A DNA stretch of 64,000 bases, taken from the NCBI GenBank assembly GCA_026545225.1, contig CM048848.1, forward strand, positions 15,799,353 through 15,863,352. Reading direction: 5' to 3'. The position numbers were made by a program, and so were the translations under genes. A model generated the notes under the pieces. The model ran no database searches, had not been told where the DNA came from, and worked only from the letters and a program-made list of their open reading frames with translations. This document shows positions 3,286 through 61,661 of the stretch, piece after piece (position 1 is the first letter of the stretch; every line of letters starts with the position of its first letter). This DNA comes from Cornus controversa. Taxonomy: Eukaryota > Streptophyta > Magnoliopsida > Cornales > Cornaceae.

Positions 3286-3374
3286 TTAAGGATTGAAAAA
3301 GCTTGAACCACCCATATTAATAGTAATGAGCACCAAGATACTTGTAATCACAGCAAGCCAAAACAAAGCTGATC
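3286..3374 (-). CDS. NTMC2T5: NTMC2T5 exon 8: hydrophobic C-terminus and stop
   Basis: 89 nt encoding the last 29 residues. The hydrophobic stretch 665-681 ([17 protein letters not shown]) is long enough to cross or anchor in a membrane and is followed by [10 protein letters not shown] and TAA. The same ending is what I recall from Arabidopsis tricalbin-3 proteins. With the N-terminal segment, the protein may hold two membrane anchors with the SMP and C2 domains between them. The acceptor is TTGCAG; intron 7 is 113 nt. Confidence 0.9.
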
Positions 3375-30300: not shown

Positions 30301-33300
30301 CATAAGAAGGGAAGATCAAGTTCGTTTGTATTTGCCTAATTTAATGAAGAGAATAATTCATTGTTTTATCTTGTTGATCGAAGCTTCTAAAAGAAAAAGA
30401 ATTATCCACAACGTTTGATTCTTTCTATAATCAGATCTTATGTCACCAAAGAAAATTCTAATTCTTCTGATTCTCACTTTGATTTTGATAAACTAGCTAC
30501 TTGTTTGCTACAAATAAAATAATTTAACTTAATGCTCTACTTGATTGAATTTTGATTCAAAGGAAAGAACGCATGAAGCTGAAATCATTCAAAGCAGCAT
30601 AAAAATCATACCAATGAATCAGCAGATATTATAGCAAAGAAGTATGACTACTATTGTTGTCTTAGCCCAATGTGCCAAGAAAAGAAAATAGGGGGCATAT
30701 ACTTCCAGCGGTTGACAAGGGGATTTGTGAGAAGATCTGCCAAGTAATCTCTGTTCTAGAGAACTTTAGTCATTGGAACATATCACTTAATTATGAAATC
30801 ACTTTTCTCATAATTAGATTCAAATATAATGAGAAATTCCAATTTCAAGTATGAAATTTGACCAAGTCTAGTAGTATGCTCTCTCAACTTCAGATAAAAT
30901 ACTCAAGATTTAAACCTCTCATTGTCCTTTTGATGTTACATTGTTATGGAAAACCCACTACAAGAGAAACACAGGATTTTGAAAGACTCTGCAGTTTGAC
31001 TAACAATAACAACTTTCGGAATTTTGTCCGATCATATCGAACACTAGGTTGTAAAATTTGTAAATAGTTGTGGTTTTGGTTGACTTTGTTATTCTAGTAA
31101 GATCAGAAACATAAATGTAAAATAATTTGTTCTGAGAAATCTAGTCATCCAATTATACGAGGAACCTAAAATATTTTCAAAGATCGAACAAAGACCGAGT
31201 CGCAAAGACTTTACAGGCTATTGTCTTTCATTGTTATATTAAATTTAGATGTTAGAAACAAAATGTGAATGAAGTATTACTGCTTGACACTCCTTGCCAC
31301 CATCTCCTCTGGTTCCCAACTATGTTCCTAGACACTCCTTTCTGTTGTGAATGGCCATTAGACAGAAACTATGCACACTGGACTGAGTCCAGGTTTTTAA
31401 GACAATTCCATCCCCTCCATTCTTTTCTGCAGTAGCACTATCAAATCTCATTTCCATCTTTTCTTTAGTTGCTCATTTTCCCTTCACATTTAATCTCATA
31501 GGTCCATCATCTGTAATACCCAAATCACTCATCAAGGTCTAAACCCACATTAGTTCACATACTCCATGGACCATAGCCCAGTATTCTGCTTCGGCAGTGG
31601 ATTTGGCCACTATTGATTGTTTTTTGCTCCTCCTTGTAACCAAATTTTCTCCTACAAAGGTGTAATAACCTGAGGTGAACTGTCTATCATCAGCCGAGCC
31701 TACCCAATCTGCATTTGTAAAAGTCTTCAATATCAAATGTCTATAATTAGAGATTAAGATTCCTCTGCCCAGAACAAAATTCAAATATCTTATAATGTGA
31801 TATACGGTCTCTAAATGAGTGGTGCGAGGACCATGCATAAATTGGCTAGTAACACCCATTGCATATGCTATGTCTGGACAAGTGTGAGATTGATGTATAA
31901 GTTTTCCAACCGATCTCTGATATCTTATCTTGTCCACTTGTTCACCTTCACCATTCCGAAGAAGATGATTAATCTCAATAGGTGAGCCTGTCTGTTTACA
32001 GCCTAACATGCATGTCTTTTCTAGAAGGTCAAAAATATACTTCCTTTAAGAGATAAATATGCCTTTTATGATCTTGCAACCTCTATCCCAGGGAAATACC
32101 ATACATTCCCAAGTCTTTAATCTAAAACTCCTGGGCTAAGTTAGCTTTCAACTTGGACATTTCCTCAGTATCAACTCCAATCACCACGATGTCATCTACA
32201 TATACAATAAGAACAGTGAACTTGCCCCTAGCTCGCTTGCTGAACATGGTATGATCAGCATTACTAACAAAGCGGAAGCTATGAACAATCGCCCACGAAC
32301 AAGGACAACTTTGAATCCATGAAGTTAAAAGAAAATTGCAAAGCAATTGATATATTATTGATAAATTGATTGATTGATTTCTCCCCTATGGCAGTATATA
32401 TATTTATAATATAGAAATCCTAATCCTAACAACACAAGGAAATCTAAAAACAAAAGAAAACTTGTAGAAATCCTAATCCTAACAGGGCAAGGAAACCTAA
32501 AAACAAAAGGAAAACTAGCAGCACAAGAAATTGCTAAAAATAAAACTCTCCAAATATTATGAAAAAATTAAATAAGAAACCTAATAATTAAAAACTACTA
32601 AATATGAAATTTCAGCCAATTCTGAGTTCGTTTGGTCCCCAAACAAAATTACCGAAATATTCAGCTCTCTCCTTATAGGACGAAAAAACATGATTTTTGA
32701 GTCCTAAACAAATGTTTTCAACCATAAAACAACATGGGCCACTAGCTAAAGCTAATGGGTTTTGATTACTGGGTTGTTTCTGATTAAATATGGGTCTCAT
32801 GGAGTGAAAACAACGCAAACGAAAATTTTATCCTACATCAATTACTCTACTTGTATCCAAACTTGATCATGGCCTTGTGAAATCGGTCAAACCAAGCCCT
32901 TGGAGACTGCTCCAAGGCATAAAGTGACTTGTTTAATTTGCATACCTTCTCTTCAGTAGTTTTAGAAGAGAAGCCTAGTGGGATCTCTACATAAAATTCC
33001 ACCTTAAGGTCTCATGGGAAATGCATTTTTCACATTCAGTTGTTCAAGGCTACACATTAAATTGGTTGCACATGACATAATCACTCAGATGGAGTTCATC
33101 TTAGCCACGGTTACAAGCGTATAATATATGCAATATGTTTTGGTAAAACCATTGGCAACCAACCACGCCTTCTATCTGTCATAATTTCATCTGCTTTCTG
33201 TTTAAAAGTGTATACCCACTTTCATCCACAATTTTTTTTCATCTAGAAGTGGAATAAGCTCCCATGTCCAATTCTAACAAAGACAAAGAAGAAACAAATG

Positions 33301-36300
33301 CACAAAAGGAAAGAGATAAAGAATCATAAGAAACAAACTTAGAAATACGATATTATGTATCAATCCTAATTCCCTTTCAAACAGCAATTGAAAGATCACT
33401 ATTATCAACAACAGGAATGATAGAACACTCACGTGTCTACATTCTATTCCAGTATATTCATAGTAGGGACTTGATAGTATTCATTTTCTAGATTATTAGA
33501 TTATAATTTTCTTTCTAGTTATGGATTTAAAGGTCCTTGAGTTACGGGATTCCCAAGTTGTAATTAATTGAGGATTTTGGTATTTTATTCCGAATTATTT
33601 ATGGATTAATTACTTAGAGTTTTACGGAGAATTATGGTATTTAAATTTATTATTTATTAGTTTTCCTTTTTGCTGAGGTCGCACCTTGGTGTGATGGCAA
33701 GTGTCTTCGCCCAAAAGCGATAGGTCTCGGGTTCGAGACTTGGAAACAACCTCTCCAAAAATGGGAGTAAGGCTAGCCACCATCTACCTCTCCCAGACCC
33801 CGCTCAAGCGGGAGCCTTGTGCACTGGGTACGACCTTTTTTTTTTTTCCTTTCTGCTATTTAATTCTTTCTTTATTGCATCTTGTATTCTGTGCTTGTTT
33901 ATTGTCGATTGTTTGACGCCTCCCCATTTCGTGTGTGAGCCTGGCCAACTCATGCGTGGAAATTGTGGGGTGTCACACATCCAAATACTTGTGGAGTAAT
34001 GTCATTAATTACCTTGAAGTAACTCAATAGGAACCTTAAAGTCAAGAGCTCGCAAGGGCATCCAGTCAATGAGGTATGCAGCTAAACATCACCTCAGAAA
34101 GGGTTAAGAGCGATCTACTTCAAGAAGATGGCAATTTTTTCTTTCAACCTCACCTTTTTGTGCTAGAGTATCAACACAATTGATTTAATGAACAATCTCA
34201 TGCTCAACTAGATATACCTGAAAAGCGCCCTCAGTGTACTCGATTCTACGATCAGTTCTAATGATCGTAATCTTGGCATCAAACTAAGTTTATACCATCT
34301 TGTCAAATGTGTGCCTTACTCTTAGAGGAAGAGGTCTCCAGCAGATATATAGACCATCATATGCCTTATCACTGTCAATTGTTCTTCCCATCCCCAATAT
34401 CTGAGACACACAATGGGTAGGAAAAAGGGTACAAAACAATTTAAAGAATTGGTGGTAACACTAACAGAAAGCAAATTGGTAGAGAAATTTTGAACATATA
34501 ATATGGAAGAAAGTAACATGATCAGGGAGCATTGCACAAGTCCCTCTCTAGAGAAGATTACAGTGTCATTTGAAACTCCAAACTTATCCCTACCAAAACA
34601 TTTGGAATAAGAGGAAAGATAAGAACATGTTATGTGATCAGTGGCTCCAGAATCAATAACCCATGGATGGGAGGGTGGAAACACACTAAAAGCATTTGTA
34701 GATATACTTGTGTGAGCAAAGTTATAAGAAAATGAGGCAGTAATAGAAACTAAGGCAGATGGTGTATTAAGACAAGCCATCAAGAATCAAGTGTTTGCAA
34801 CTCATCTGCATTAAGAATGACATTATCCCACTGGTAGGCTGAGACACAGCCTTTGACACCTTTAACATATGAGCATGTAACCTTGTTGTGCCAGATCAAC
34901 CACCACCTCGTCCTCTAATGTGATGACCATGGAGTTTCCAATAATGATCCCTAGTGTTTCTCGTCTACCCTCATGGATCACACTTCAGTTGGTCCTTCTC
35001 AAATCCCCCACTCTTACCATCAACACGGGGTTGTCCTTATCACTAATCTCTTTGAAGAAAAGAAGCTATGACAGAGTAATCCTGAGTCATAATGTGAATC
35101 ATAGCACTCATAAGACTCTCCTCTTGCTGGACATATGCATAAGCCCTACCACAAAGATGGGAGGGGATCCATGCCAAGCGACAACCATGGAGTTTCCAAC
35201 AATGATCCCTAGTGTTTCTTGTTGAAGAATTTGCGTTGATTGGAGAAAAATCAGGAGATTCCCTCTTAAGAGGGAAAGTTGACTAATCCTGTAAATTAGG
35301 GATTCTCTGTAAATTAGGCAGCTCCCAGATTTGGTCCCTAATTTCTGTAATTTACTTATTCTAGTTAGTTGACTCACTAATTCCTAGGGTTACCTATTGT
35401 ATAATTAGTTTCCTTATTTAGTCATATAACAGTATATCTATTTTTGTATTTTCTATGAATATGAAATGAGAAAGATATTCTTCTTCATGGTATCAGAGCC
35501 AAGTTATAATTTGTTTCTCTAGTTTATATTGCCGAGAGAAACCCAGAAAACTCAGCCTTCATTGCTGAGAAGGAAAAAAATCAGATTCCCAAAAAAACTC
35601 AGCCTTCATTGCTGAGGAGAAAAAATCAGATTTCATCATGTCTGAAACCACAGAAACCACGTCCACCTGTACCCAACCTATCACCACTGGAACAAACTCA
35701 TCATTGGGTGAGCACCAGAATCTCCAAGCTTCCTTCAAATTGAATGGCAGCAACTACCTTGAATGGTCACAGGTGGTCAAGACCTTCATCAAAAGGAAGG
35801 GAAGACTGAGTCACCTCACTGGACCAGAACCTAGAAAAGATGAACCCAGTTTTTCCTCTTGAGATGTGGAGGACTCAATGATCATGTCATGGCTATGGAA
35901 TTCCATGCAACCCAAGATCAGCAGAACCTACTGCTCAGGAGATCTGGGAGGCAATTCGTCAAACATACTCCAAGTACAAGATGCTGCCCAAATCTATGAG
36001 ATAAAGACCAAAATTTCTTCTACCAAGCAAGGTACTCTATCTGTAACTGAGTATTACAGCACTATGAAGGGCTTATGGCTTGAATTAGATCATTATCAGA
36101 ATTTTAAAATAGAGTGTAGTAAAGATGCAGCCATGTTGCAAAAGTTTGTGGAAAGAGAGAGGATTTTCGAATTTCTGGCTGGCCTTAATGTGGAACTGGA
36201 TCAAGTAAGAGTCCAGGTCCTTGGAAAGGAGTCCTTGCCCTCCTTAAGGGAAGTCTTCTCAATTATAAGAGGAGAAGAGAGCCGGAGGAATGTGATGCTC

Positions 36301-39300
36301 GACAATCACACACAAAAAGGTTCCGCCCTTGTTGCTTTCAAACCAAACGACAAGAGTGGAACTGTTGTGAACCTAGGAAAGACGGAGGCACAGAACCCAA
36401 GCAACAAAGATGGTCTTTGGTACAATTATTGCAAGAAATCAAGGCATACCAGGGAGACATGTTGGAAAATCCATGGCAAGCCATCATTCTTTGGAAAGGG
36501 AAATGATGGGAAAGGAGGTAGATCTGGACAGAAAGGAGGACAAGCACATTTTGCCAATATGGAAGAGAGTCAGCACAAGACCCCTACAGCCAATAATCAG
36601 GAGATGGGAGGATTCAATAAGGAAGAGATAGACAAACTTCGGAGTTTTCTCAATTCTTTGGACAAACCGAGTGCCTCTTGTTCATTGGCACAGTCAGGTA
36701 AGTATCCTTTGGCTCTTAGTGTCTCGAAAAATTGTTTTTCTGGTTCCTGGGTCATAGACTCAGGTGCCACAGACCATATGACAAATTTATCTCATATGTT
36801 TACCACTTACAGACCTTGTCCAGGAACCCAAAAAATCAAAGTAGCTGATGGAACATTAGCTGCTATTGCTGGTTAAGGAACTATTGCTTTGACCTCTTCT
36901 CTAGCTTTAAAAAATGTCTTGCATGTGCCGAAGCTTTCTGTTAACCTTTTGTCCATTCATCAAATTACCAAGGACTTAGATTGTCGCGTAACTTTCCTTC
37001 CACATCACTATGTGTTTCAGGAAAATGCTACGGGAAAGACGATTGGGCTTGCTAAGGAAAGAGAGGGGCTCTACTACCTGGAAGCTGAGAGTGGCAATGG
37101 TGATCGTCTACCCCTTTCAGTAAAGGTTTCATCAAATATACCCCAAATTTGGTTGTCATTTTCGTCTTGGACATCCACCTTTTATTCTATTGAAAAAAAT
37201 GTTTCCTTCATTGTTTGAAGAGTTGGATATTAATAGTTTTCATTGTGAGGTATGTGAATTAGCCAAACATCATCGTGTTCCTTTTCCATTGAGTAATAAA
37301 AAGTCTTCAAGACCATTTGCTTTGATTCACATAGATGTTTGGGGGCCTTCTCGGGTTCCTAATATTTCTGGGGCTTGTTGGTTTGTCTCCTTCATTGATG
37401 ACTATTCTAAGGTCACTTAGGTATATCTATTGAAAAATAAATCTGATGTTAATACTGTTTTCCGCATCTTTCACAAAATGATTTGTAATCAATTTAGTGT
37501 TCAAATCCAAACCATTCGATCTCATAATGGAAGAGAATATTTTAACCAAATCTTGTCACCTTACTGTCAAAAGGAGGGAATTATTCACCAATCTTCATGT
37601 ACTGATTCACCCCAACAAAAAGGAGTTGCTGAAAGAAAAAATAGACACCTCTTGGAGATTACTAGAGCCCTTCTATTTCAAAAGAATGTTCCTAAATCAT
37701 ACTGGGGAGAGGCAGTTTTGACTGCTGCTCATCTTATCAATCGATTGCCATCAAGGGTCCTTGAATACAAAACTCCAATGAGTGTTCTTACTCAATTCTT
37801 TCCAAATTTCAGTGGGATTAGCAGTGTTCCTCCTAAAGTTTTTGGGTGTGTCGCCTTTGTCCATATACATGCCCAACATCGCACTAAACTTGACCCTAGA
37901 GCCCTTAAGTGTGTCTTTGCTGGTTACTCTTCAAACAAGAAGAGTTATAAATGCTATCACCCGACTTCCAGAAAAAATTTCACCTCCATGAATGTAACCT
38001 TTATTGAGAACCAATTTTTTTTTCCAAGCCTTATCTTCAGGGGGAGCCTTTGGAAGAAGATAATGTTGGGTCCTTCCTTCATGACCTGCTCAGCACAAAT
38101 TTACATGTTGATTTACCTGCCAATTTTAACGAACCATCACCTCCTCTTTCTATTGGAATTGATGTATTGCCTGAAACCGAACATGAGAAGGTGGGGGGTG
38201 ATCAAACTATGCTACTTAAGGTGTATTCAAGGAGGAAACAACCCATCTCTGAACTAGAGCTCGTCCAAGAATCAGAACCCGTGGTAGGTAATGAAACTCC
38301 AGTTAATGAAACTCCACCTTTTATGGATTCTTGTTTTTTTTATGACCTAAACATGCCAATAGCTCTTAGAAAAGGCACCAGGAGGTGTACCCAACATCCC
38401 ATATCCAATTTTATCTCATTTGATAAACTATCACCCGCACATAAAGCCTTTCTCACTCAATTAAATTCCATTGAAATACCCAAAACAGTTCAAGAGGCAC
38501 TAAGAGATAATAATTAGAGGGCAACCATGAGTGAGGAAATGAGAGCCCTTGAGAAGAACAAAACTTGGGAGATTGTTGAACTTCCTAAGGGTAAGAAACC
38601 TGTTGGGTGTAAATGGGTGTTTATAGTAAAATATAATGCTGACGGTACTTTGGAGAGATATAAGGCTAGACTAGTGGCGAAGGGCTACACTCAGACTTCT
38701 GGGATAGATTATCAGGAGACGTTTGCTCCTGTGGCAAAAATGAACACTATCCATGTTTTACTATCTTTGGCTACTAATCTTGATTGGCCTTTGCAACAGT
38801 TTGATGTAAAGAATGCCTTCTTACATGGTGACTTAGAGGAGGAGGTATACATGGAGATGCCACCTGGTATAGAGGGGAATGCCAGTAACAGTGAAGTGTG
38901 CAAGCTCCGAAAAGGATTATATGGCCTTAAACAGTCTCCTAGAGCATGGTTTAGAAGATTTACAAAAGCTATGGTGGAGATGAAATATCAGCAGAGTCAA
39001 GGAGATCACACTCTTTTTATCAAGTTCTCAACTTCAGGGAAAGTGAGAGTGTTAATTGTCTATGTAGAAGATATAATTGTAACCGAAAATGACCTAGAAG
39101 AGATAAGTCGACTAAAAGGGCATCTTGCAAAAGAATTTGAAATAAAGGATCTTAGAAAACTAACGTACTTCCTAGGAATTGAAATGGCTCACTCAAAAAA
39201 TGGAATCTTTGTCTCACAATAAAAGTACATTCTTGATCTACTCAATGAAACTGGAATGTTAGGATGTAAGCCAGTTGATACTCCTATTGAGTAGAATCAC

Positions 39301-42300
39301 AAGTTAGGAGAAGCAAAGGAAGATGTTGTAGTTGACTGAGGAGTGTATCAAAGGTTGGTGGAAAAACTAATCTATCTATCACACACAAGGCCAGATATAG
39401 CCTATGCAATAAGTGCAGTAAGTCAATTTATGCACTCACCAAAAGAGATACATTTGGCAGCTGTCTATAGGATTCTCCGCTATCTGAAGTCAACTCCCGG
39501 AAGAGGCATCCTATTTCGAAAGAATGAAAAACTGGAGTTGGAAGCATACACTGATGCTGACTGGGCGGGGTCGTAGGTCAACTTCAGGATATTGTATTTT
39601 TTTGGGAGGAAATTCGGTTACTTGGAGGAGTAAGAAACAATCTGTGGTGGCTAGATCCAGCGCAGAAGCCGAATTTCGAGCTATGGCACATGGGATTTGT
39701 GAGTTGCTCTGGTTAAAGATTATACTCACTGATCTTGGAATAAAGTGGGAAGGAACAATGAAGTTATATTGTGACAATAAGTCGGCTATTAACATAGCCC
39801 ACAATCCAATTCAACATCACCGGACCAAACATGTAGAAGTGGACAGACATTTTATCAAAGAAAAGCTAGACAATGGCCTCATTTGTACACCCTATGTCTC
39901 AACAGAAGGTCAACTTGCTGATATACTTACCAAGGGTCTTGCAAGTCATTCATTTCAAACAATCACGAGCAAGCTGGGAATGGAGAACATTTACTCACCA
40001 GTTTGAGGGGGAGTGTTGAAGAATTTGCGCTGATTAGAGAAAAATCAAGAGATTCCCTCTTAAGAGGGAAAGTTGACTAATCCTGTAAATTAGGGATTCT
40101 CTGTAAATTAGGCAGCTCCCAGATTTGGAACCTAATTTCTATAATTTACTTATTCTAGTTAGTTGACCCACTAATTCCTAGGGTTACCTATTGTATAATT
40201 AGTTTCCTTATTTAGTCATATAGCAGTATATATATTGTTGTATTTTCTATGAATATGAAATGAGAAAGATATTATTCTTCTTCATTTCTCATCTTCCCGC
40301 ATAAATCTCACTTGAATTGGTCCTTCTCAGAGTCCCCCACTCTTACCATCAACAAAGTGTTGTCCTGATTTACTGATTTCTCTGAGGAGTAGAAGCTAGA
40401 ACAGAGCAATCTTGAGTCATAGTGTGCATCATAGAACTCCTACGACTCTCCTCTTGTTGGACATATGCATAAGCCTGACACATAGATGGGAAGGGATCCC
40501 TACGAAGCACCTGAACATGAATCTGGCCATACTCCATGCTAAGCCCATCTAGGAAATCGTACATGCGCCCCTTGTCTAGTAGTTTTTGAAATTCGGAACT
40601 ATCATTAGCACAGTCTGCCTGAAAATCCTGATGACAGTCCAACTCTTTCCACAAACTACTAAACTCAACGTAATGTTGCGCAATAGACATATCTCCTTGT
40701 TTAGTCTCATGAATTTTCTTCCTCAATTCATAGCCTCGTGCATCATTCCCAATCAGAGATTAGGTCTCAACTATAACAGTGCAATGGCATGGGCAAAATC
40801 AAGAAGAAGATAGCCACAACTGATATGTGGTTGCATGGAGTGAAGTAGCCAAGGCATGACCAAGGAATTTTCAGATACCCATTGATCAAAAGAGGGTTTT
40901 GATGGTTTGGGCTGCTTACATGCTCTAGTCATATATCCATATAACCCACAAGCCTTAACCGTTAGCAAACAACACCGTGACCAGGCTAAGTAATTGGTGG
41001 TAAGGTGGAACCCAGTGCACAAGGCTCCCCGCTTGAGTGGGGTCCAAGCTAAGTAATTACTTCCATCCAATTTCACAGGACTAATTTGAAGGGAGGGATT
41101 TTCTACAAGTCTACATGACTCAATCCAACTTCACTACTATTGGCACAACTCGCACTTATCTCTGACATGTCTACATAGTAACACAATTTCTACTCACAAA
41201 GTGAAAGCCGAGGAAAACCAGAAAAAAGTCCAACAACAAAGGACATGGGAGATTTTCAATTTTAATACATAGCCCAAGCCTCACAGACCAAAGAATGAGT
41301 GAAATAATAGCAAAATACCATGGCTAGAGAAGAAAAGACACAACCAGCGACTGTATTAGAGAGAGCCAAACCTGTCCAAGAGCCAAAAAAAACCATCGAA
41401 TCTCAATTCGATTGTGACGAAATCAACAAAAGAAGACTCATCAACCCTATGCGCACCCCCATAGGATCATATGGGTCCAAATAAACTAGCCAATAAATCA
41501 AGGATAAGAAGATCACAAAATCAGTTCCAAAATTCAACAACAACAACAACTAAGCCTTTTCCCAATTGCTTGGGGTCGGCTACATGAATCCGATATTTCC
41601 ATTCCGTTCTATTTAAGGTCATCTCTTCAGTTAATCCACATGCTATCATATCTTTCTTTACTACCTCTACCCATGTTAGCTTTGGTCTTCATCTTCCCCT
41701 AGCATTGCCCTCAATTTGGACTATGTCACTTTTCCTGACTGGTGCAGTTAAAGGTCTTCTTTGCACATGTCCAAACCATCTTATCCGATTTTCCCTCACT
41801 TTATCTGCAATTGGTGCTACACCAACCATCTCCCGAATGTGTTCATTTTTAATTCTATCCTTTCTAGTCTTCCCGCACATCCATCTCAACATTCGCATTT
41901 CTGCGACACTCACTTTATGCAAATGTTGTTGCCTAGCTACCCAACATTCGGTACCATAAAGTATGGCTGGTCTAATAGTTGTTCGATAAAACTCCCCTTT
42001 CAATCATAAGGGGATACGCCTATCACACAATATACTAGATGCACCCCTCCATTTAACTCATCCTGCCTTGATTCTATGATTAACGTCATCTCCAATTTCT
42101 CCCTCATTTTGAATAATTGAGCCTAAATAGCGAAAATGTTCACTTTTTTGTACCTCTTGATTCTCAATCCTCACTACATCCTCATTTGTCCTTCTAGATT
42201 TACTAAAATTACACTCCATGTATTCAGTTTTATTTCGACTTATCTTAAACCCTTTTAGTTCTAAAGCTTCTCTCCAAACCTCCAATTTGTCATTAACTCC

Positions 42301-45300
42301 TTCTCTAGTCTCATCAACTAAAACAATATCATCAGTAAACAACATACACCACGGAATATCACCTTGGATGTGTCTTGTCAGCTCATCCACCACTAAAGCA
42401 AAGAGGTATGGACTTAATGCTGACCCTTGGTGTAGGCTTACAGTGATTGGGAATTCGCTTGTTTCCCCTACAGGCGTTCTCACTATAGTTACACACCCAT
42501 TATACATGTCCTTAATTGTGTCAATGTATCCCTTTGTGACTCCTTTCTTTTCTAAAACCCTTCATATTAGGTCTCTAGGTACCCTATCATAGGCTTTCTC
42601 CAAATCAATAAAAATAAAATGGAGATCTCTCTTCTTCTCTCTATATCTTTCCATTAGTCTCCTCAACAAGTGAATAGCCTCCATCATTGACCTACCCAAC
42701 ATGAATCCAAATTGATTCTCCGACACTTCCGTCTCCCGTCTTAGGCATTGTTCAATCACTCTCTCCCAGAGTTTCATAGTGTGACTCATTAATTTAATAC
42801 CATGATAATTAATACAACTTTGTACGTCCCCTTTATTTTTATATTTAGGTATAAGAAACCTTTGGCGCCACTCATCTGGCATCCTCTTAGTTGTTATAAT
42901 TTTATTAAACAATTTTGTTAACCAAGACAAGCCAACTTCTCCTAGACACTTCCACACCTCGATAGGAATGCCATCGGGTCCTAAAGCCCTCCTCGATTTC
43001 ATCTTCCTTAGGCATTCCTAACCTCCCACTCCTTGATCTTACAGAAAAATATAATATCTCTAACATCTTCCTCCACGCCTAAACTTCTTATATGGTTTTC
43101 ATTTAGCAATTTCTCCAAATAGTTTTTCCGTCTTTCTTTAATTTCATCGTCCTTTACTAAAACCCGTGAATCTTCACTCTTAATACATTTAATATGGCTA
43201 AAATCTCCAGTTTTCCTCTCCCTTAGCTTGGCAAGTTTATATATATTCTTCTCTCCATCTTTTGTACCTAGTTTAGAATAGAAATCGTCATATGCTCTAT
43301 GTTATGCCTCACTTACAACTTTCTTAACTTCTTTATTTGTTTTTTTATATTTGTTAAAAGTTTCACTATTCCTAGTTTTTTGCCAAATTTTATAGTATTC
43401 CCCGTTTTGTTTTTTAGAATTTTTGAACCTCGTCATTCCACCACCAAGTTTCTTTAAATGACGGTCTCGTTCCTTTTGATTCTCCTAGAACTTCTTTTGC
43501 CACTCTTTTTATATATGTAGTCATCTTATTTCACATTAATTTTGTTTCATCTTCTACATTCCACGATGCTTCTCTTAACATATTATTTTTAAACAAATTC
43601 ATTTTCTCCCCTCTTAAATTCCACCACCTAGTCCTTGGGTTTATGAACTTTATGGTTCTTTTTCTCCTTTTTGGTTGCCCTTTTATACATAAATCTAGGA
43701 CAAGAAGCCTATGTTGTGAGGTTACACTCTCTCCAGGAATAACCTTCCAATCTTTGCTTGCTAGTCTATCCACCTTTCTAATTAAAAAGAAATCACTTTG
43801 GCTTACATTTGAACCACTTTTAAAGGTTATTAAGTGTTCATCTCTCTTTATAGGAAATGTGTCCCTTATTATAAGGTTATATGCTACCACAAAATCTAAG
43901 ATAGTCTCCCCGGCATGATTTCTATCTCCATATCCATGCCCACCATGTACCATTTCATAGCCTTCGCTCTCTTTTCCTACATGGCCATTAAAGTCTCCTC
44001 CTATATACACTTTTTCTCCTTCGGGTATCCCTTGCATCAACTCGTCCATATGTTCCCAAAAAAGTGTTTTAATATTATCATCTAATCCTACTTGGGGTGC
44101 ATATGCGCTAATTATATTAACTATATGTCCTCCTAATACGAGTTTAACTAATATGATCCTATCTTCTTTTCTAGTAACGGTTATTACATCGTCTTTTAAA
44201 TTTTTCTCTATGATTATCCCTACTCCATTCCTATGTCTAGTCTTTCCTGTGAAGTATAATTTATATCCTTCAATTTCTCTAGCTTTTTCACCTACCCACT
44301 TAGTTTCTTGTAAACATAGGATATTAATCTTTCTTCTAATCATAGTTCCAAAATTCATAATTCAAAAATTAGAAAAGGCCCATCAAACGGCTTCAAACCT
44401 CGAAACAAATTACACATTAATTCAAAGATAATTCAGGCAGTTGATCCATGTGGTTTTCGCCATGTTCCGAGACCGTACGGATTTTGACATCAGTGCTTTC
44501 TCAGCCTACTCTGGTGTATTTCAGACTTCTTCAAGGGTTTCGGAACTCTGATTGGTGGCTCAATCACCAAGTGGAAATACAATATTATTATATTTTAGGT
44601 TTTGGATGATTAGGGTTTGAAGAAAGAAGAGAAAGAATGAGAGAGAAAAAATATAAAGGGTTGTAGAATGAATTTGACATCTCTACACCCATATATTTAT
44701 GTTAATGAAAAGTAAGATTTAATAATACTCCACGTGGTAATTTTCTGCTAAGTACGCTCATTACACGAATAGTCCCACATATTCCAACAAATAAGGAGAT
44801 ATGCCTGAAAACAAAATTTAAAATGCTAAAGACTAGAGAAAGAGAGAGAGAGACTAAATAAACAACAAACATAATGAGACCACTAATACAACAGTGATGG
44901 TGCTAGATGGTAATAGATTAAGAGATGCACAGAAACAAGTTGTAAGTTCATGCCAACAGAACTTGGTGTATTTACCCGGGGGGAAGATATTTGGTGCATC
45001 TTAGAAACTTGTTTCTCGTTTACTTTCTTCTAGTGACAAGAATGATATCATGAAATATCATATTAAGCTTTGTGCATGAAAATTGAGCATCGAAGCAAAA
45101 GAAAGCGCAGTCACAGAAGAACTCTTTCCTCCACGCATTCAGAATCAATAAAATAAGTTGACTCTACCTTCTAAACCAATAAGAAAGGGATAGAAGTACC
45201 AAAAAATGAAAAAATAAATTAAAAAGAAAAAGCACAACAGGGAGAAAGTAAACATTATTGTGTGTGCATAGATGAGAGAAAAAGACCACTCACATTGAGA

Positions 45301-48300
45301 GAACGGGAATTGCTGGTATTGCCCAATACATGCACATAGGAGGAAAAGAGAACAAAACACATTAGTATTTTCAATTCCAGGGAGATTTACATTCAAACAA
45401 GAAGTTTTACATACTACACGCAATATTAAACCATATTGGCCTTAACAATAATGTGAAACATCAAATGTGAGATTTGATTCATTGTGATATCAAGTTATGT
45501 ACTCAAAAAGGAGTAAACATTTTTTTTTTTTTTTTTATAAACGTTGTGTGTCCAAGAACTTCAAAAAGGAGTAAACATGATTTAACATACATCACAAGAT
45601 TGAGGAACCCTTTTTGAAGATTAAATGGGCTAGAAAAAAACTAACTTCAGTACGTTTTATCTCTCTCTAATGGAGAACACTATACCAAAAACTAAAAAGT
45701 AATAGTACTAATAGTGAAAAGCAAGCCATTGGATAAAATGGGATGTACAATCTCCAAATTAAGGTTAATTGGATAAACATCATAAGGCTGGACACTACCA
45801 GAATGGAACAAAGACCACTTCAATTTACTCGTTATATAATTTCTTTGATATAATCCAGTTGGACATCTGTAACAACCTATAAAAAAATAACAAAAAGGAA
45901 TAATAAATAAAGAAAAAAGATAATAATTTGAAAGAAAATTTGAATTAAAATAATGAATAAGTAGTATAGTCTAAATAAGAGTAATAATTGATAAATAGTA
46001 TAGTTTAAATAGGAGTTAAGATAAATGAAGATTACAACTATAAGACTTCTCTTAAAATAGGTAATCTCCCAAAGGGAAATTTAGGTTTATTCTCGAATGT
46101 CTATTAAGAAGTAAAATTTCCATGTCTTACCTTATGATGATTCTGAGGATTAATATTGTTCACAACCATCTACTCTAAAAAGCTTAAGCTGTTAGAGAGG
46201 GTGTAACTTAAATATATAAATCCTTCAACATGGCCCCTCACTTGTGGCCTTGTTTTGGTCCAACACGTGTTTCAATTTTAATTATCAGGGTGACGGTGAG
46301 GTTTGAACTCGAGACATTTGGCTTTGATACCATGTTAACCACCATCTACTCTAAAAGCTTAAGCTGTTAGAGAGGGTGTAACTTAAATATATAAATCCTT
46401 CAACAAATATCTTGGTAGTAGATATAACTATTAAAATTAAAAAACTAATGGTTAGAATTTCATAATAGTTGTAAAATTTGATTCTTGTAATAATGATTAT
46501 TCACTTCTTTTAGTCTAATACTAGTGTTGAGTGTGACAAAGCAAGGTAAATGGGTTGTTTGAGATTTAAATCTTTAAAATGCATTTTGGATGCATGTTCA
46601 GAATTTATTTGCATTAATATGATAATCTTGATCCTCTCTTATTGATATATTCAGAAACATGTATAGTAAGATTGATTAACCAAATGATTAAACTTAAAGT
46701 GTTGATTTAATGACACTTGAGGTATATGAATAGATTAAATTAGTGATTATTTTATTAAATATAATAATAACATGATTTCTATTTATGTGTCTCGCTCTTA
46801 TATATTTTTGTTTGAAGACTACGCCTTCCAGCTGTTGAAATTTAGTGATAAAACTAGATAGTTTGAAAAAGAAAAAATAGGATTCATGTAGCCAACTCCA
46901 AGTAGATGGCGGGCCCTAGCATAATGGTGATGTCGCTCCACTGTCACCTGGAGGTCACTGGTTCGAAATGGGATCCAGCCTCCCACATGTAGAGGTAAGC
47001 CTGAGTACATTTGACTCAGACTACATAGAGCAGGAGCCTCGTGCACTGGGCTGTGCTTTTTTTTTTTTAATGTAGCCAACCCCAAGTAGTTGGGAAAAAA
47101 GGGTTGGTTGAGTTGAGTTGAGTTGAGTTGGGTAAAGTACGTGATAGTTTAAAAAAGAAAAATAAGGAGTGTAGTTTGATTGATATTCAAAGTCTTTATG
47201 ATACGGATTCACCTATAAAAAAGAATAATAGATAAAGAGAAAAGAAGATAATTTGAATTTTAAATTTTGGATTAAAATAATGGATAAGTAGTATAGTTTA
47301 AGCTAAACTAACATTACAATACTTGTTGTAAAATAGGTAACCTTTCCACCTTATATATCGGTTGAAAAGAGAGAGAGAGAGAGAACAATGCAAACTGGGA
47401 AAAAAATGTGTAAGGGGGAGAGAAACTGAAGAAGGCAGGCTTGAAGGAGGCAGCCGAAGAAGAAGAATACTAGAAAAGAATTTATAAATGAAAACCAGGA
47501 AAGTTGATCTTACTTTATACCTTTATATAATTTGTGACTTGGTACCTTAATAAGCTGATTTAATGGACATTAAGATCATGTTGTTGTATATGCATATCTT
47601 GATATTTGAATCAAGTATAACTAAAAATCATTTTGACAACTATTAAATTAGTCATGAGATGCATATAATCTGATGTACTTGGATGTGAATGGACACAAAA
47701 TATAACACAGTCTTGTTATATTTCATCTAATCTACATCTTTATCTAAAGAAGAACATCAAGGGAAGAACTAGGAAAATAGTTTTGAATTGCAATTCCGTG
47801 TATGTGTACCGTGGCTTTGAACTTTGTTCCTGAACACAAATAGCTACGCTTAATTCAATGTGTGTACCGTATTTTGGAACTTTGTTCCTGAACACAAATA
47901 GCTAGGATATTAACCTTTACTGTAACTCTGACATACACAACAGCAACATGCTACTTCATCAGCAAAACATAGATGAAATGATATAATATAGAGGTAAAGT
48001 ATGATACTATGATTGGTTGCCTAGGGTTTCAGTCAAATGCTGGTAGACTACAGGGAACAGACATATGGAGTATACAAGCATAAGACCCCTTTAAAATGAA
48101 CTCATACAAAATGTTGTTGTCGGCAGGAGCTTGTGCAGCTTGGCCTCTGGTTTATCTGAACATTAGAAATGAGTTTTCCTTTAAAGATGTTGAAGAGGAA
48201 ATTTACATCACTGTCACCTGGGTTTAAGAGTACACCGTAGTGAAGGACAAGTAATAAAGAAGTTGAAGCAGTCTTCTAGAGCCTAATTTGAGACGGGGCA

Positions 48301-50641
48301 TTAATCAAGATCGGATATATTCAAAACCAAGTTAATCCTAGACTATTCACAAAACAGTCGGCAATAATTTTGCATAGATACATAAGCTGAATGGAGAAAT
48401 GGGAACTTTAAGCATTGAATATAAGCAAAAGGGTGCAAGAGACAATAATTTGATACTTCCTTTCATCTTTTTGCTTTTCTTTATCTTCCCTCTTCTTTTG
48501 CTTTTGTTTTTTTTTTTTATCAACTCCTTTTTTAATAGATCATTAGGTCAGTGCAATGGCTACACCATCACTTTATTTTCTTTTTCTATATAAGTGCCAC
48601 ACTCTCTCCCTTCCTTATTATAAAGATAATACCTTTACCCTTCTCCGGGGCCATAATGCCAGCAAAAACGAAGATACTCTAGCAAAGAAAGGATCAATCT
48701 ATTTATCATTTACTGGGCTTGGTAAATTTACTCCTAAATGTTGCAAAATTTTCCTCTCTCTTTTGTTTCTCATTTCCTTCCACTTTTGACTAAATTTTTT
48801 ATTTTTCTTATATTTCATAATAGAAAACACATATCAAGAGACTCTTCAAACTTTGATGCAGAAATAAGAACATTCTTGAAAGCCATGAAACTATGACATA
48901 CCCATTAGATTGAACAAACGAAATGGTGACAGTTCAAATTTTATCTTTGGAAGCGAAACAAAAGCCCATGAAGCAGCTCCCACCCACGGCTCTGATGGTA
49001 TCAATCGCAATTTGACCCAAAGTTCCCCATCAATGTCAAAATCTCGGACACCAACTGGCACGACAACAGGGATAATGCCGAATTTCAATGATAGCATTAA
49101 CAGCATTCGAGCACCGCCAGTATAACGGAGGCCTATCTGGTATCTGATAACAACACAAAAAAAAAACAGTTACATGCAATAAAGAATTACTCTTTGGTCA
49201 ACAGATAATGAGCTCCAAAAGTAAAAGAAAAATACAAATTCTAAGCATATCTGTTTAACAATATAGCACATCCCACTTTATAACCAAAGAAGAGTGAATT
49301 TTGGCAATTAATTTTTATAAAACTGGATTGATAAATACCCAAGGGCCAAGGCAAACCAAGAGAAACAGAATCTCCAATTTATTCTTCTTACCGCAACTCA
49401 TTTTTATCTGTTTTCAATTATCTTGTTCTCCTTCTCATCTCTCATGGCATATTACCATAATTCCTCTGATCCGACAAAGAACTTCCTCTTCTTTATTACC
49501 CTTACCATTTAGACTGGAGTATCTATTATATTGTCGAAAACATACTGTTCTATCATTAACAAAATGTGAAAAAACACATAATACAACGTGGAATGCTCTT
49601 TTCTCGTCTTTTGTCGTAGTGGTTCAAAATGCAGACTGAAAGCAAATTAAATTGATAAAATCTTGAAGATTATCAAGTCAAAACAAACAATGAAGCGCGA
49701 CCCTGAAGGATGAGCATAAAACAAGAGCTGAAGCAAACAAGATCTGATTAAAAAAAAGCAGCAGAATTTCTATGAATGACTTACTGCAAATCATTGACAC
49801 GGCGAGAAGTTCTGCGCTCGACATTCCTAACTGACAATGGTTCATCACCCAATGAGAACTGCTTAATTTCAACTCTTTGCACATAGTCAGGTTTCTTTAG
49901 ATTATCAATGACTGGCTGAAGCAACCCAATGATCCAATTCTCAAGCCCAGCTCTGTAAACCTTCCACAACTTCCCCAAAACCATATTCACCCACTCAACT
50001 GATTCTTTCCTTTGCAAATCCTTCTCGAGGAACAAAGAAAAACTAGTTGGTACCTGTGGCCAAATACCAGGCCGATTCCCACTGCCCGATTTGTTATTCT
50101 TCTTCCTCGAAGTCCAGAGTTTATCGAAGACAACCCCAACGAAGAAAAAGAACACAAACAACCCAACAATGTTCCGATTAATGGGAGGTGAGGGGATAGG
50201 GTGTATTACACCCAGCTGAGTCCTTAGCTTATCGACAATAGGGTCTTCACTGAAGTTAGTAAAATTAGAACCCATTTGAATGGAGTCTTGAGCAGCCACC
50301 TCTCCTTGATCCAGTTCATCAGATAACTTCTGCTTCAATACGAAGCTTTTTACGCCCTGTCTCGCAGCAGCCGAATTTTTGGTGAATTCAATGTTAAAAT
50401 TATGGTTACTTCCGGAATTGGTTGGGATCATACATGCCTGAAGAATAATCCATTTTGGCCGAGAATTCTTGTACGAAAGAGTCATTCCGACAAACTTTTT
50501 TCTTCTTCTTCTTCTGGAAGAAGAGCCAATCAGTGAGAAATTCCATTTCCTTTCTTCGGAGATACTAGTAATTTCATGGATTTTAGGTAAAGAAACTTGA
50601 AAGAAATCACAGCCCGTAGAGGTTGATTGTAAAACAACCAT
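3286..50641 (-). CDS. NTMC2T5: Tricalbin-3/NTMC2T5-type SMP-C2 lipid-transfer protein, 8 exons
   Basis: Joined exons (minus strand): 50641-49785, 49143-48902, 45312-45294, 29767-29562, 29281-29172, 29037-28939, 3941-3488, 3374-3286; 2076 nt, 691 residues. Every junction is GT-AG and in phase. Seen in the protein: Arg-rich basic patch 43-49, membrane segment about 157-174, SMP domain about 213-403, C2 domain about 424-535, acidic linker 553-585, Thr run 634-639, hydrophobic segment 665-681 and a short tail ending SSFFNP. Known for the family: plant synaptotagmins/tricalbins are membrane-anchored at contact sites; SMP domains carry glycerolipids between bilayers and C2 domains bind acidic membranes, often with Ca2+. 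From memory the length and motif order match Arabidopsis tricalbin-3 proteins (At3g19830, At1g50260). The ATG is fixed by an in-frame TAA directly before it. Odd points: a 19-nt exon and introns of 15.5 and 25.0 kb filled with transposons. The host frame shows no break. Confidence 0.93.
3488..3941 (-). CDS. NTMC2T5: NTMC2T5 exon 7: end of C2 domain, acidic linker
   Basis: 454 nt encoding residues 512-662. It starts [21 protein letters not shown], the last C2 strands, then [16 protein letters not shown] and an acidic stretch (Asp/Glu-rich, residues 553-585). A conserved helix-like segment [21 protein letters not shown] (601-621) follows, then a short Thr run coded by a small triplet repeat. 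The exon lies 25 kb from exon 6; its acceptor TTACCAG is intact and keeps phase 0. The donor is GTAGTG. Confidence 0.92.
3962..3979. repeat. (TA)n microsatellite in intron 6
   Basis: A short perfect TA run about 20 bp inside the acceptor end of intron 6. Nothing else is recognised between 3980 and 4472. Confidence 0.7.
4485..4689 (+). mobile_element. tRNA-derived SINE, 205 bp, complete
   Basis: Starts AGCCCGCAAGGGC with an A-box-like TACCTCAACTGGTAAG and a B-box-like CAGTTCGAGACTC, and ends in a poly(A) run. It is flanked by a 12-bp duplication AGATATACCTAT (4473-4484 and 4690-4701). The pol III boxes, size and A tail are diagnostic of a plant SINE. It lies antisense to NTMC2T5 in intron 6. 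Confidence 0.85.
4735..10562 (+). mobile_element. Ty3/gypsy pol fragment (F), split by copia A
   Basis: Plus-strand pieces on both sides of element A resemble gypsy pol: RT end and RNase H on the left (4735-5134); late RNase H, the [13 protein letters not shown]-like tether and the zinc-binding start of integrase ([36 protein letters not shown]) on the right (10073-10562). No LTRs, gag or integrase core are recognised. An old, broken fossil with several breaks; older than A, which sits inside it. Confidence 0.8.
5140..10067 (-). mobile_element. Ty1/copia element A, 4.9 kb, with both LTRs
   Basis: LTRs 5140-5411 and 9807-10067 (TG...CA) are flanked by TACTC on both sides (5135-5139, 10068-10072). 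Minus-strand order: primer site complementary to initiator tRNA-Met next to the right LTR; gag (about 8920-9743) with a CCHC knuckle [15 protein letters not shown]; protease region near 8650; GAG-pre-integrase and integrase (about 7330-8410); RT (about 5960-6640) with the YVDDI box; RNase H (about 5420-5830); a purine tract beside the left LTR. The structure looks whole but the coding region is broken in several places. The LTRs differ by about 4% by hand count, so perhaps 1.5-3 million years. It is in sense orientation to NTMC2T5, nested in gypsy fragment F. Confidence 0.9.
10772..15549 (-). mobile_element. Tnt1/Tork-like Ty1/copia element B, 4.8 kb, with both LTRs
   Basis: LTRs 10772-11171 and 15142-15549 begin TGTTGTGAAAAAC and end ATAACA; both flanks carry TAAAG (10767-10771, 15550-15554). 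A primer site (TGGTATCAGAGCC on the minus strand) abuts the right LTR. Gag about 14290-15108 with CCHC knuckle [17 protein letters not shown]-pre-integrase ([14 protein letters not shown]) about 13800-13935; integrase about 13370-13800; RT about 12060-12690; RNase H about 11250-11590. Domain order and wording resemble tobacco Tnt1. Structurally whole, coding broken in several places. The LTRs differ by about 5-6% by hand count. Nested in the 5' LTR of C; sense to NTMC2T5. Confidence 0.9.
16787..18737 (+). mobile_element. Short non-autonomous copia-type element D, 1.95 kb
   Basis: LTRs 16787-17317 and 18209-18737 (start TGTTAGGTTG) are flanked by GATGG (16782-16786, 18738-18742). A TAGTATCAGAGC primer site follows the left LTR and a purine tract AAGAGGGAGATTTG precedes the right one. 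The 0.9-kb interior holds only traces of Tnt1-like gag ([20 protein letters not shown]) and of the protease/pre-integrase region; no RT or integrase domain is seen. It must have moved with enzymes from another element. The LTRs differ by about 9% by hand count, the oldest dated insertion here. Nested in the gag region of C. Confidence 0.88.
20461..26103 (+). mobile_element. Ty1/copia element E, 5.6 kb including a nested solo LTR
   Basis: LTRs 20461-20734 and 25830-26103 (TGTTGGAGAATC...TTTACA) are flanked by GTTCC (20456-20460, 26104-26108). The primer site TGGTATCAAAGC abuts the left LTR and a purine tract GAGGGGGAG the right. Parts: gag about 21060-22020 with a degenerate CCHC, protease near 22110, integrase about 22500-23330, RT about 24440-24960, RNase H about 25230-25800. 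A solo LTR of the B family (24006-24426) lies in its RT region. Broken in many places. The LTRs differ by about 5-6% by hand count. Nested between integrase and RT of C. Confidence 0.9.
24006..24426 (-). mobile_element. Solo LTR of the element-B family
   Basis: About 420 bp closely matching the two LTRs of B (TGTTGTGAAAAAC...ATAACA), in the same orientation as B, with no internal region. It interrupts the RT region of E. The flanks are GTATC and CTATT, so the target duplication is not preserved exactly. Solo LTRs arise by recombination between the two LTRs of a full element. Confidence 0.88.
27690..28358 (+). mobile_element. 5'-truncated LINE, RT zinc-finger (zf-RVT) end
   Basis: The translation contains [17 protein letters not shown], then a Cys-x2-Cys...His-x4-Cys array ([10 protein letters not shown], then NHLFVCCPF) and [15 protein letters not shown], typical of the C-terminal zinc-finger region of plant L1-type LINEs. 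One in-frame TGA (near 27916) lies between the two halves. The piece ends in a poly(A)-like run at 28350-28358. Endonuclease and RT core are absent. It marks the right end of recognisable C sequence. Confidence 0.75.
28359..28938. other. Donor-proximal end of intron 6, unique AT-rich sequence
   Basis: Contains a (TA)n run at about 28446-28463 and T-rich tracts. No mobile element is recognised. This and 3942-4472 are probably original intron sequence around the retroelement nest. Confidence 0.5.
28939..29037 (-). CDS. NTMC2T5: NTMC2T5 exon 6: C2 domain, second Ca2+-loop region
   Basis: 99 nt, phase 0 at both ends, encoding [15 protein letters not shown] ... GTGE (residues 479-511). The loop reads [13 protein letters not shown]: Asp498 and Asp504 are present, but Leu500 stands where many Ca2+-binding C2 domains have a third Asp. 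Lipid binding may therefore be weakly Ca2+-dependent or independent; that is inference. The acceptor is TTGCAG and the donor GTAAGC. Confidence 0.92.
29172..29281 (-). CDS. NTMC2T5: NTMC2T5 exon 5: C2 domain core
   Basis: 110 nt encoding [20 protein letters not shown] ... PIWNQ (residues 442-478). It holds the hallmark C2 motifs: TDPYV (Asp445, second Ca2+-ligand position) and the P-x-W-N-(Q/E) strand. The acceptor is ATCCAG and the donor GTGAAG. The flanking introns are short (280 and 134 nt), so exons 4-6 form a compact island between the two giant introns. Confidence 0.93.
29562..29767 (-). CDS. NTMC2T5: NTMC2T5 exon 4: end of SMP domain, start of C2 domain
   Basis: 206 nt encoding [19 protein letters not shown] ... 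[18 protein letters not shown] (residues 374-441) plus one base. It closes the SMP domain, crosses a short linker ([12 protein letters not shown]) and starts the first C2 strand. Asp432 in LVDAQKL sits where the first Ca2+ ligand of C2 domains is expected. The acceptor is TTCTAG and the donor GTAACA, a weaker donor than the others. Confidence 0.92.
29768..30190. other. Acceptor-proximal end of intron 3, no feature seen
   Basis: AT-rich; one chance minus frame at 29903-30085. No element ends or repeats recognised. Confidence 0.4.
30191..30410 (+). mobile_element. Probable solo LTR, 220 bp
   Basis: Begins TGTTAGAATCCG and ends TTATCCACA, with flanks ACATT and ACGTT (one mismatch). Contains TATA-like AT-rich blocks. 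No internal sequence, primer site or second copy in the window. The orientation is assumed from TG...CA and could be reversed. Confidence 0.5.
30411..31429. other. Intron 3 sequence without a recognised feature
   Basis: AT-rich, with no open frame that resembles a known domain and no clear repeat ends. Confidence 0.4.
32265..32840 (-). mobile_element. Solo LTR, 576 bp, inside G
   Basis: A block foreign to copia coding interrupts the RT region of G and is flanked by a perfect ATTAC duplication (32260-32264, 32841-32845). On the minus strand it runs TGATGTAGG...TTTGTTA. It carries a TATA-like block near 32385-32415 and a doubled motif (GAAATCCTAATCCTAAC) at about 32405 and 32467. Family unknown. 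Confidence 0.7.
33445..33977 (+). mobile_element. LTR fragment of the Tekay-like family, with a SINE inside
   Basis: Closely similar to the minus-strand fragment at 56071-56300 and more distantly to the 3' part of LTR H: shared segments GTGTGAGCCTGGC, TTATTTATTAGTTTTC and TTGAGTTACGGGATTCC. It ends with GGGGTGTCACA. No target duplication was identified. A SINE occupies 33675-33847. Confidence 0.6.
33675..33847 (+). mobile_element. tRNA-derived SINE in an LTR fragment
   Basis: A-box-like TTGGTGTGATGGCAAG, B-box GGGTTCGAGACT, 3' end GCACTGGGTACGACC followed by a T run. Flanked by TTTTCCTTTTTGCT and TTTTCCTTTCTGCT (one mismatch). The T-ending tail and GTGCACTGGG end place it with the other SINE copies at 40996-41047 and 46906-47069. 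Confidence 0.85.
35220..40284 (+). mobile_element. Ty1/copia element I, 5.1 kb, best preserved copy
   Basis: LTRs 35220-35487 and 40014-40284 (TGTTGAAGAATTTGCG...TTCTTCA) are flanked by TTTCT (35215-35219, 40285-40289). The primer site TGGTATCAGAGCC follows the left LTR directly and the purine tract GAGGGGGAG precedes the right one. Parts: gag about 35640-36640 ([15 protein letters not shown] near 36420), protease DSGATDH near 36760, integrase about 37090-38030, RT 38530-39220 and RNase H about 39340-40006. Structurally whole with a handful of coding breaks. The LTRs differ by about 4% by hand count, among the youngest here. Antisense to NTMC2T5, inside G. Confidence 0.92.
40996..41047 (-). 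mobile_element. 52-bp SINE 3' fragment with target duplication
   Basis: The insert reads, on the minus strand, as a SINE tail (GGAGCCTTGTGCACTGGG) and is bracketed by GCTAAGTAATT at 40985-40995 and 41048-41058. It interrupts the gag region of G. A 5'-truncated insertion with its own duplication is expected of LINE-driven retrotransposition. Confidence 0.7.
41537..44343 (-). mobile_element. RTE-type LINE (J), 2.8 kb, 5'-truncated
   Basis: Flanked by a perfect 14-bp duplication AGTTCCAAAATTCA (41523-41536, 44344-44357). The 3' end (left) has a (TTG)n tail on the minus strand after TAGCCGACCCCAAGCAATTG, usual for plant RTE LINEs. An APE-type endonuclease is open over 43531-44343 ([39 protein letters not shown]), starting at [12 protein letters not shown], so the 5' UTR and first residues are missing. 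RT follows in pieces: 42562-43002 ([18 protein letters not shown]), 42058-42507 and 41689-42003, separated by frameshifts/stops near 43000-43030, 42510-42560 and 42005-42055, with more between 43020 and 43530. The catalytic box reads FTDD instead of FADD (42328-42339). Dead copy, sense to NTMC2T5. Confidence 0.9.
44790..45293. other. Intron 3 near the microexon donor, no feature seen
   Basis: AT-rich with a (GA)n patch near 44835-44853. Probably original intron sequence next to the microexon. Confidence 0.4.
45294..45312 (-). CDS. NTMC2T5: NTMC2T5 exon 3: 19-nt microexon in the SMP domain
   Basis: The exon reads CAATTCCCGTTCTCTCAAT on the minus strand. It is preceded by TACCAG, with a pyrimidine tract about 25 nt further upstream, and followed by GTGAGT. 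With the G carried from exon 2 and the G that opens exon 4 it supplies A-I-P-V-L-S-M (residues 367-373). The family motif at this place is LFNLM-(A/G)IPVLSMFLTKLLT, so the microexon is needed both for frame and for protein. Nineteen nt is not a multiple of three: skipping it would shift the frame inside the SMP domain. Introns of 3.6 kb and 15.5 kb flank it. Confidence 0.9.
45877..46075 (+). repeat. Diverged repeat, copy 1 of 2 in intron 2
   Basis: Shares CCTATAAAAAA, AATAAAGAAAAAAGA, AATTAAAATAATG, ATAAGTAGTATAGT and AAAATAGGTAA, in that order, with 47208-47355. The sequence starts near TGTAACAACC, so it could be an LTR fragment. Family unknown. Confidence 0.5.
46157..46405 (-). mobile_element. 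TRIM-type miniature LTR element, 249 bp, complete
   Basis: Terminal direct repeats of 74 and 73 bp (46157-46230, 46333-46405), TG...CA, flanked by a perfect AATAT duplication (46152-46156, 46406-46410). On the minus strand the 5' repeat is followed at once by the primer site TGGTATCAAAGCC; a purine tract GTGAGGGGCCA precedes the 3' repeat. The interior is 102 bp and non-coding. These are the defining parts of a terminal-repeat retrotransposon in miniature. Lies in intron 2, sense to NTMC2T5. Confidence 0.88.
46870..47140 (+). mobile_element. RTE LINE 3'-tail fragment, split by a SINE
   Basis: GGATTCATGTAGCCAAC and CCCCAAGTAGTTGGG match the 3' end of LINE J, followed by a (TTGAG)n-type tail at 47098-47135. 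Only the last tens of bases of the LINE are present. The SINE at 46906-47069 sits inside it. Confidence 0.75.
46906..47069 (+). mobile_element. tRNA-derived SINE inserted in a LINE tail
   Basis: A-box-like TAGCATAATGGTGATG, B-box-like TGGTTCGAAATGG, 3' end GCCTCGTGCACTGGGCTGTGC and a T run. Flanked by a 20-bp duplication ATGTAGCCAACTCCAAGTAG (46886-46905; one mismatch in 47070-47089). Confidence 0.85.
47208..47355 (+). repeat. Diverged repeat, copy 2 of 2 in intron 2
   Basis: Partner of 45877-46075, same motif order, with indels. It begins at CACCTATAAAAAAG and ends near AGGTAACCTTTCC. Confidence 0.5.
47803..47905 (+). repeat. Tandem duplication, 58-bp period
   Basis: Two adjacent copies of a unit starting TGTGTACCGT and containing AACTTTGTTCCTGAACACAA ATAGCTA (47803-47860 and 47861-47905, the second shorter). 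Intron 2; no function evident. Confidence 0.75.
47906..48901. other. Intron 2 next to exon 2, no further feature
   Basis: AT-rich; T-rich tract near 48470-48540. The intron 1 interval (49144-49784) is likewise unremarkable. Confidence 0.4.
48902..49143 (-). CDS. NTMC2T5: NTMC2T5 exon 2: SMP domain core
   Basis: 242 nt encoding residues 286-366 ([15 protein letters not shown] ... FRLFNLM) and one base of codon 367. This is the strongly conserved middle of the SMP fold, including the [15 protein letters not shown] and [10 protein letters not shown] segments. The acceptor is TTATCAG and the donor GTATGT. A second AG seven bases downstream could serve as an acceptor, but only the first keeps the frame with exon 1. 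Confidence 0.93.
49785..50641 (-). CDS. NTMC2T5: NTMC2T5 exon 1: N-terminus, membrane anchor, start of SMP domain
   Basis: Encodes residues 1-285 plus two bases of codon 286. It begins with a Ser/Thr- and Arg-rich region without clear domains (residues 1-150), then the hydrophobic segment at about 157-174 followed by a basic KLWTSRKKN stretch that would stay on the cytosolic side. The SMP domain starts at about residue 213 ([15 protein letters not shown]). The exon ends in ...[10 protein letters not shown] and CA, then a donor GTAAGT. The basic N-terminus could be an organelle-targeting extension, but the sequence does not settle this. An in-frame TAA abuts the ATG and G is at +4. Confidence 0.93.
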
Positions 50642-60072: not shown

Positions 60073-60622
60073 GAGACCGCATGTGGACTGCCCAAAGTAG
60101 ACATAAGAGTTATGCTAACCGAAAGACTCGAGCATTAAAGTTCAAGATGGGGGATCAGGTTTTGCTTAAGGTCTTTCCCATGAAGGGAGTAATGCGGTTT
60201 GGGAAAAAGGGGAAGTTATTGCCTCATTTTGTGGGTCCTTTTATGATTACTAACAAGATTAGGGCGGTAGCGTATAGATTGAAGTTACCAGATACAATGC
60301 ACAGGGTGCACAATGTCTTTCATTTGTCTATGTTGCAAAAATTTCTTAGGGATGATGATACTTATCAGCACATTAAGGTTGGGGAGATTGAGTTGCAGCC
60401 AGATGCAACATATGTGGAACAACCTTACTGTATTATTGATCGTAGGAACCAGATCCTTCATTCCAAGACTATTCCGTTAGTGCGTGTTCAGTGGAGCTAC
60501 CACAACGAGGCAGAATCCACTTGGGAAAGGGAGGATGAAATAAAAGCAAAGTATCCAGAGCTTCTTATTTCAGGTAGGGGGTGAATTCCGAGGACGAAAT
60601 TCCTTTTTTTAGGGGGGAAGAA

Positions 60623-61603: not shown

Positions 61604-61661
<58 letters not shown>

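Follow-up and report, generated by a model that had tools for sequence, protein, structure and literature searches.

Here we report that a 19-nt sequence in Cornus controversa, CAATTCCCGTTCTCTCAAT, is with high probability the third exon (exon 3) of an NTMC2 type 5-like gene that is itself intact, that it is most likely present in all normal transcripts of that gene, and that transcripts from which it is skipped are predicted to be degraded. This microexon lies at 45294..45312 on the minus strand of the window (the whole stretch of DNA analysed, 64,000 nt in length), is bordered by AG and GTGAGT, and carries the reading frame from phase 1 to phase 2 in the midst of a synaptotagmin-like, mitochondrial-lipid-binding protein (SMP) domain.

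The spliced model of the gene comprises eight exons on the minus strand, separated by GT-AG introns, and with exon 3 included it can be read directly as an open frame of 691 codons (691 aa). Exon 1 (49785..50641) begins with the earliest in-frame ATG, a putative start codon, and extends to its donor site; exon 2 (48902..49143) encodes SMP sequence (PF25669), and exon 4 (29562..29767) the end of the SMP domain and the start of the C2 domain. Exons 5 (29172..29281; PF00168) and 6 (28939..29037) contribute to the C2 domain, exon 7 (3488..3941) comes after an intron of 25.0 kb, and exon 8 (3286..3374) holds a C-terminal TM-like stretch, recognized by eye, together with the stop codon. Introns 1 to 7 measure 641, 3,589, 15,526, 280, 134, 24,997, and 113 nt, respectively. 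Pfam analysis of the spliced protein identified the SMP domain (PF25669, 58.5 bits against a cut-off of 35) and a single C2 stretch (PF00168, 45.8 bits against a cut-off of 22), and inspection of the translation by eye revealed two hydrophobic TM-like stretches, one in the N-terminal part and one at the C terminus. The presence of an SMP domain, one C2 domain, and two TM-like stretches supports, at the level of sequence, the assignment of the gene as NTMC2 type 5-like made in a preliminary description of this DNA; the type 5 label itself is based on the domain order and on the Arabidopsis members. The product would be an extended-synaptotagmin-like protein consisting of a membrane anchor, an SMP lipid-binding domain, one C2 domain, and a C-terminal anchor.

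A protein search of the 771.7-Mb genome, in which the best 17 candidates were scored, matched 10 places, of which seven were the gene's own exons and three were weak C2 matches elsewhere; no second copy of the gene was found among these 10 places. The PF25669 profile, run over the genome, gave four matches, all below the cut-off, two of them belonging to the NTMC2 type 5-like gene and two to paralogues. The absence of any PF17047 (SMP_LBD) match over the genome is uninformative, given that the controls were silent too.

Within the window, the exon 3 sequence occurs once on the minus strand (45312-45294), where it is preceded by ..ATACCAG (longer context GGGCAATACCAG) and followed by GTGAGTGG. 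A search of the window with AGCAATTCCCGTTCTCTCAATGT at up to three mismatches returned a single match (0 of 100 shuffles had one), and at the same tolerance the window held no second copy of exon 3 that might serve as a mutually exclusive exon. As can be seen directly from the sequence, the 19 nt convert the phase 1 in which exon 2 ends (48902) to the phase 2 in which exon 4 begins (29767), encoding the peptide A-I-P-V-L-S-M with its first (A) and last (M) codons split over the junctions. In length and in its GT-AG borders, exon 3 falls within the definition of a plant microexon used here (an internal coding exon of ≤51 nt). The sequence, coordinates, strand, and AG/GTGAGT flanks put forward in the preliminary description were exact, and its statements that the exon restores phase between exons 2 and 4 and codes for A-I-P-V-L-S-M are borne out by the spliced model and its translation. 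An imperfect 9-nt tandem repeat (GCAATACCA GCAATTCCC, 7/9 alike; 45322-45305, minus strand) straddles the intron 2 acceptor and would read A-I-P-A-I-P, which might bear on the origin of this acceptor.

One alternative is that the 19 nt are a chance AG-N19-GT, in which case the gene would either join exons 2 and 4 through a different small exon or be no longer functional. Open 19-nt candidates are indeed common: the 19,134-nt gap between exons 2 and 4 contains 44 open, phase-compatible AG-N19-GT candidates, and 408 open candidates when lengths of 4-30 nt are admitted. A donor of the form GTGAGT, GTAAGT, or GTATGT is present in three of the 44 and in nine of the 408, however, and exon 3 alone among the 408 encodes I-P-x-[LIVM]. 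The motif x-[ILV]-P-x-[LIVM] appeared in a 19-nt candidate in 40 of 300 dinucleotide shuffles, and in combination with any of the three donors in none of 300. When each of the 44 peptides was set between the flanking exon sequences and the resulting 89-aa fragment was scored against PF25669, exon 3 ranked first with 40.6 bits, followed by candidates at 37.3 and 32.2 bits (19.6 bits with the residues removed). The runner-up, VVPIVVK, scores close to exon 3, but its donor is GTTGGA. In a longer fragment, the SMP score was 68.3 with exon 3, 48.9 with its residues removed, and 52.9-64.1 with six substitutes. This Pfam scoring took in all 44 of the 19-nt candidates and, of other lengths, only DPW.

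Comparison with single sequences gave exon 3 a less exclusive position, which would favor the alternative in so far as exon 3 is outscored by some candidates that differ from it in length. Against E-Syt2 alone, exon 3 ranked fourth of 692 open candidates of 4-60 nt, with five candidates sharing its score; against two SMP paralogues taken singly, it ranked 45th and 52nd of the 692; and by summed BLOSUM62 it was second of the 44, behind EALELKG (donor GTTTAA; 13 vs 12). Single distant sequences are a weaker yardstick for exon 3 than the family profile. The remainder of the gene is open from end to end. A chance match or a non-functional gene is extremely unlikely, and on the evidence of its sequence there is a very high probability that the 19-nt stretch is a genuine coding exon.

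Alignment with other SMP sequences is consistent with this reading. The segment that exon 3 would supply, AIPVLSM, falls within the C-terminal third of the SMP domain. The E-Syt2 (4p42) alignment, covering residues 213-558, pairs LFNLMAIPVLSMFLTKLL with LTNLLDVPGLNGLSDTII and is free of gaps through AIPVLSM, whose counterparts are DVPGLNG in E-Syt2 and ELPGIAG in two SMP paralogues of the same genome, L012 and L013. In these paralogues the sequences are GLDVSELPGIAGWV and GLDVTELPGIAGWL, continuing with DKI and DKL, and the distance from the proline to KLL/KIL is equal in L012, L013, and the exon 3 gene. A short exon is present in the paralogues as well: by reading, a 42-nt exon lies just downstream of ELPGIAG in both (DKLLAVAFEQTLVE in L013). 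Their introns, in contrast to those of the NTMC2 type 5-like gene, fall after ELPGIAGWL or GWV, and ELPGIAG therefore sits in a larger exon. The 19-nt exon 3 and the 42-nt exon of the paralogues are accordingly neighbours and not counterparts; two branches of the family divide this stretch of the SMP domain into small exons, but not at the same positions.

Exon 3 is separated from exon 2 by intron 2 (45313..48901, minus strand; 3,589 nt) and from exon 4 by intron 3 (29768..45293, minus strand; 15,526 nt). The final 100 nt of intron 2 contain a single YTRAY match, CTAAT from 45365, which is the putative branch point for exon 3, and no AG other than that of the acceptor. Between CTAAT and the acceptor there is, by reading, a pyrimidine stretch, TTTTGTTCTCTTTTCCTCC, ending ~26 nt before exon 3; this distance is greater than usual and counts against the preferred reading of the 19 nt as an exon included in all normal transcripts. 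Downstream of exon 3, T accounts for 54 of 100 nt, and U-rich motifs have been described around plant microexons (PMC8831610). Inclusion of exon 3 nevertheless appears most likely, because its acceptor has a pyrimidine stretch, one match to the branch-site consensus, and no competing AG, with GTGAGT as the donor. The plant microexon factor GRP20 is reported to bind poly-purine motifs in exons (PMC10808074). By composition, exon 3 has 5 purines in 19 nt, outside the poly-purine (GA-rich) character of GRP20-dependent microexons, and for this reason it is not an obvious GRP20 target.

Both of the gene's very long introns contain transposable elements. In intron 3, a Copia element lies on the plus strand at 35220 to about 40284; its LTRs are 95.9% alike, and by reading it is flanked at either end by TTTCT. 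The minus strand of this intron carries LINE-like pieces (42058-44361) with endonuclease and reverse-transcriptase matches; a direct repeat of ~215 nt, 82.9% alike, flanks the Copia element (34957-35170 and 40285-40499). Intron 6 (28938-3942, minus strand; 25.0 kb) contains four LTR pairs with LTRs 91.3-94.5% alike, located at 5140-10067, 10772-15549, 16787 to about 18737, and 20461-26103, with 5-nt flanks, by reading, of TACTC, TAAAG, GATGG, and GTTCC, respectively. Upstream of the gene, at 57290-60584 on the plus strand, a Gypsy-type retrotransposon is represented by pieces with RNase H, a Tf2-1-like SH3, and a chromo domain. A 100-nt unit is present in four diverged copies at 61362-61906 with spacings of 147, 132, and 166 nt. 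In Arabidopsis, 99.23% of introns are reported to be shorter than 1 kb, and introns longer than 5 kb, composed mainly of transposable elements, can be spliced (PMC5575664).

The consequence of skipping exon 3 for the reading frame follows directly from the sequence. Joining exon 2 to exon 4 turns exon 4 nt 6-8 into TAA and yields a frame of 368 residues ending ...NLMGF-stop, with four exon junctions (exon 4/5, 5/6, 6/7, and 7/8) downstream of the stop. By the usual junction rule, an mRNA in which a stop codon lies upstream of exon junctions is a target for decay. With four such junctions, decay of the skipped mRNA is therefore likelier than a stable truncated product, and the exon 3-skipped mRNA is predicted to be a decay substrate; omission of the exon would lead to degradation of the transcript and to a protein of at most 368 residues. 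Any such protein would lack the C2 domain, and its SMP domain would be broken. The view in the preliminary description that the exon is essential for the SMP domain was right as to frame and domain integrity, since the domain is cut short without it; of the SMP-truncated product proposed there, the truncated frame stands, while a stable protein is less likely than decay.

It had further been proposed that inclusion of exon 3 acts as a switch, in which case inclusion would vary by tissue or stress, and skipping would lower protein levels through decay or give an SMP-truncated protein. An exon whose length is not a multiple of three, with a stop right after skipping, would suit such regulation, and the long flanking introns could make recognition of the exon inefficient; in addition, Arabidopsis AT3G19830, labelled NTMC2TYPE5.2 in PMC11036579, is among the genes differentially spliced under stress according to a Figure S27 legend that leaves the event unspecified (PMC11202685), although the authors of that study caution that artefacts may account for several of the new isoforms. 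The length of the exon, however, implies only that skipping breaks the frame; exon 3 is needed for the protein, which does not make it a switch, and beyond exon length no support for the proposal emerged. The one strong donor fits plain inclusion, as does the lack of a second AG over the final 100 nt of intron 2; the purine content differs from that of the exons bound by GRP20, and no published report of regulated skipping of exon 3 was found in a literature search whose scope excluded most subscription journals and supplements. Regulated switching is consequently unlikely. Less likely again is that exon 3 acts as a dose valve, being partly skipped under stress or in some tissues with degradation of the skipped transcripts, such that introns grown by transposable elements tie the supply of a single-copy SMP lipid-transfer protein to recognition of a microexon. 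Exon 3 is probably an ordinary, constitutive microexon.

The setting of exon 3 is mildly notable: its 19 nt have 3.6 kb of intron on one side and 15.5 kb on the other, and no second copy of the gene was found among the places matched in the genome. For annotation, its importance is that a gene model lacking exon 3 would be split or would stop at 368 residues, and 19 nt between multi-kilobase introns provide a demanding test case for splice-site pairing in plants. Beyond these two aspects, the exon is an ordinary one in a conserved gene. No title or abstract naming exon 3 was retrieved in the literature search, within the same scope as above. The earlier remark that automatic gene finders usually overlook such small exons has documented support for microexons of ≤15 nt (PMC8831610), but 19 nt is outside that survey.

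The microexons of that survey, 45 conserved plant clusters of 1-15 nt (PMC8831610; MEPDB, PMC12409088), resemble exon 3 in being internal coding microexons within protein domains whose skipping breaks the frame. They differ in size, the 19 nt of exon 3 being above the 15-nt limit, and the main text of PMC8831610 contains no mention of NTMC2, synaptotagmin, C2 domain, or SMP. The closest comparison is with the NTMC2Type5 genes of land plants, the intron positions and phases of which were charted in 2007 (Craxton 2007, PMC1976326). As far as described there, these genes have TM regions, an SMP-containing linker, and one C2 domain, an order that the C. controversa gene with its TM-like stretches appears to follow, and their intron pattern is conserved within the type; the C. 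controversa gene is unlike them in its introns 3 and 6, which measure 15.5 and 25.0 kb and are partly filled with transposable elements.
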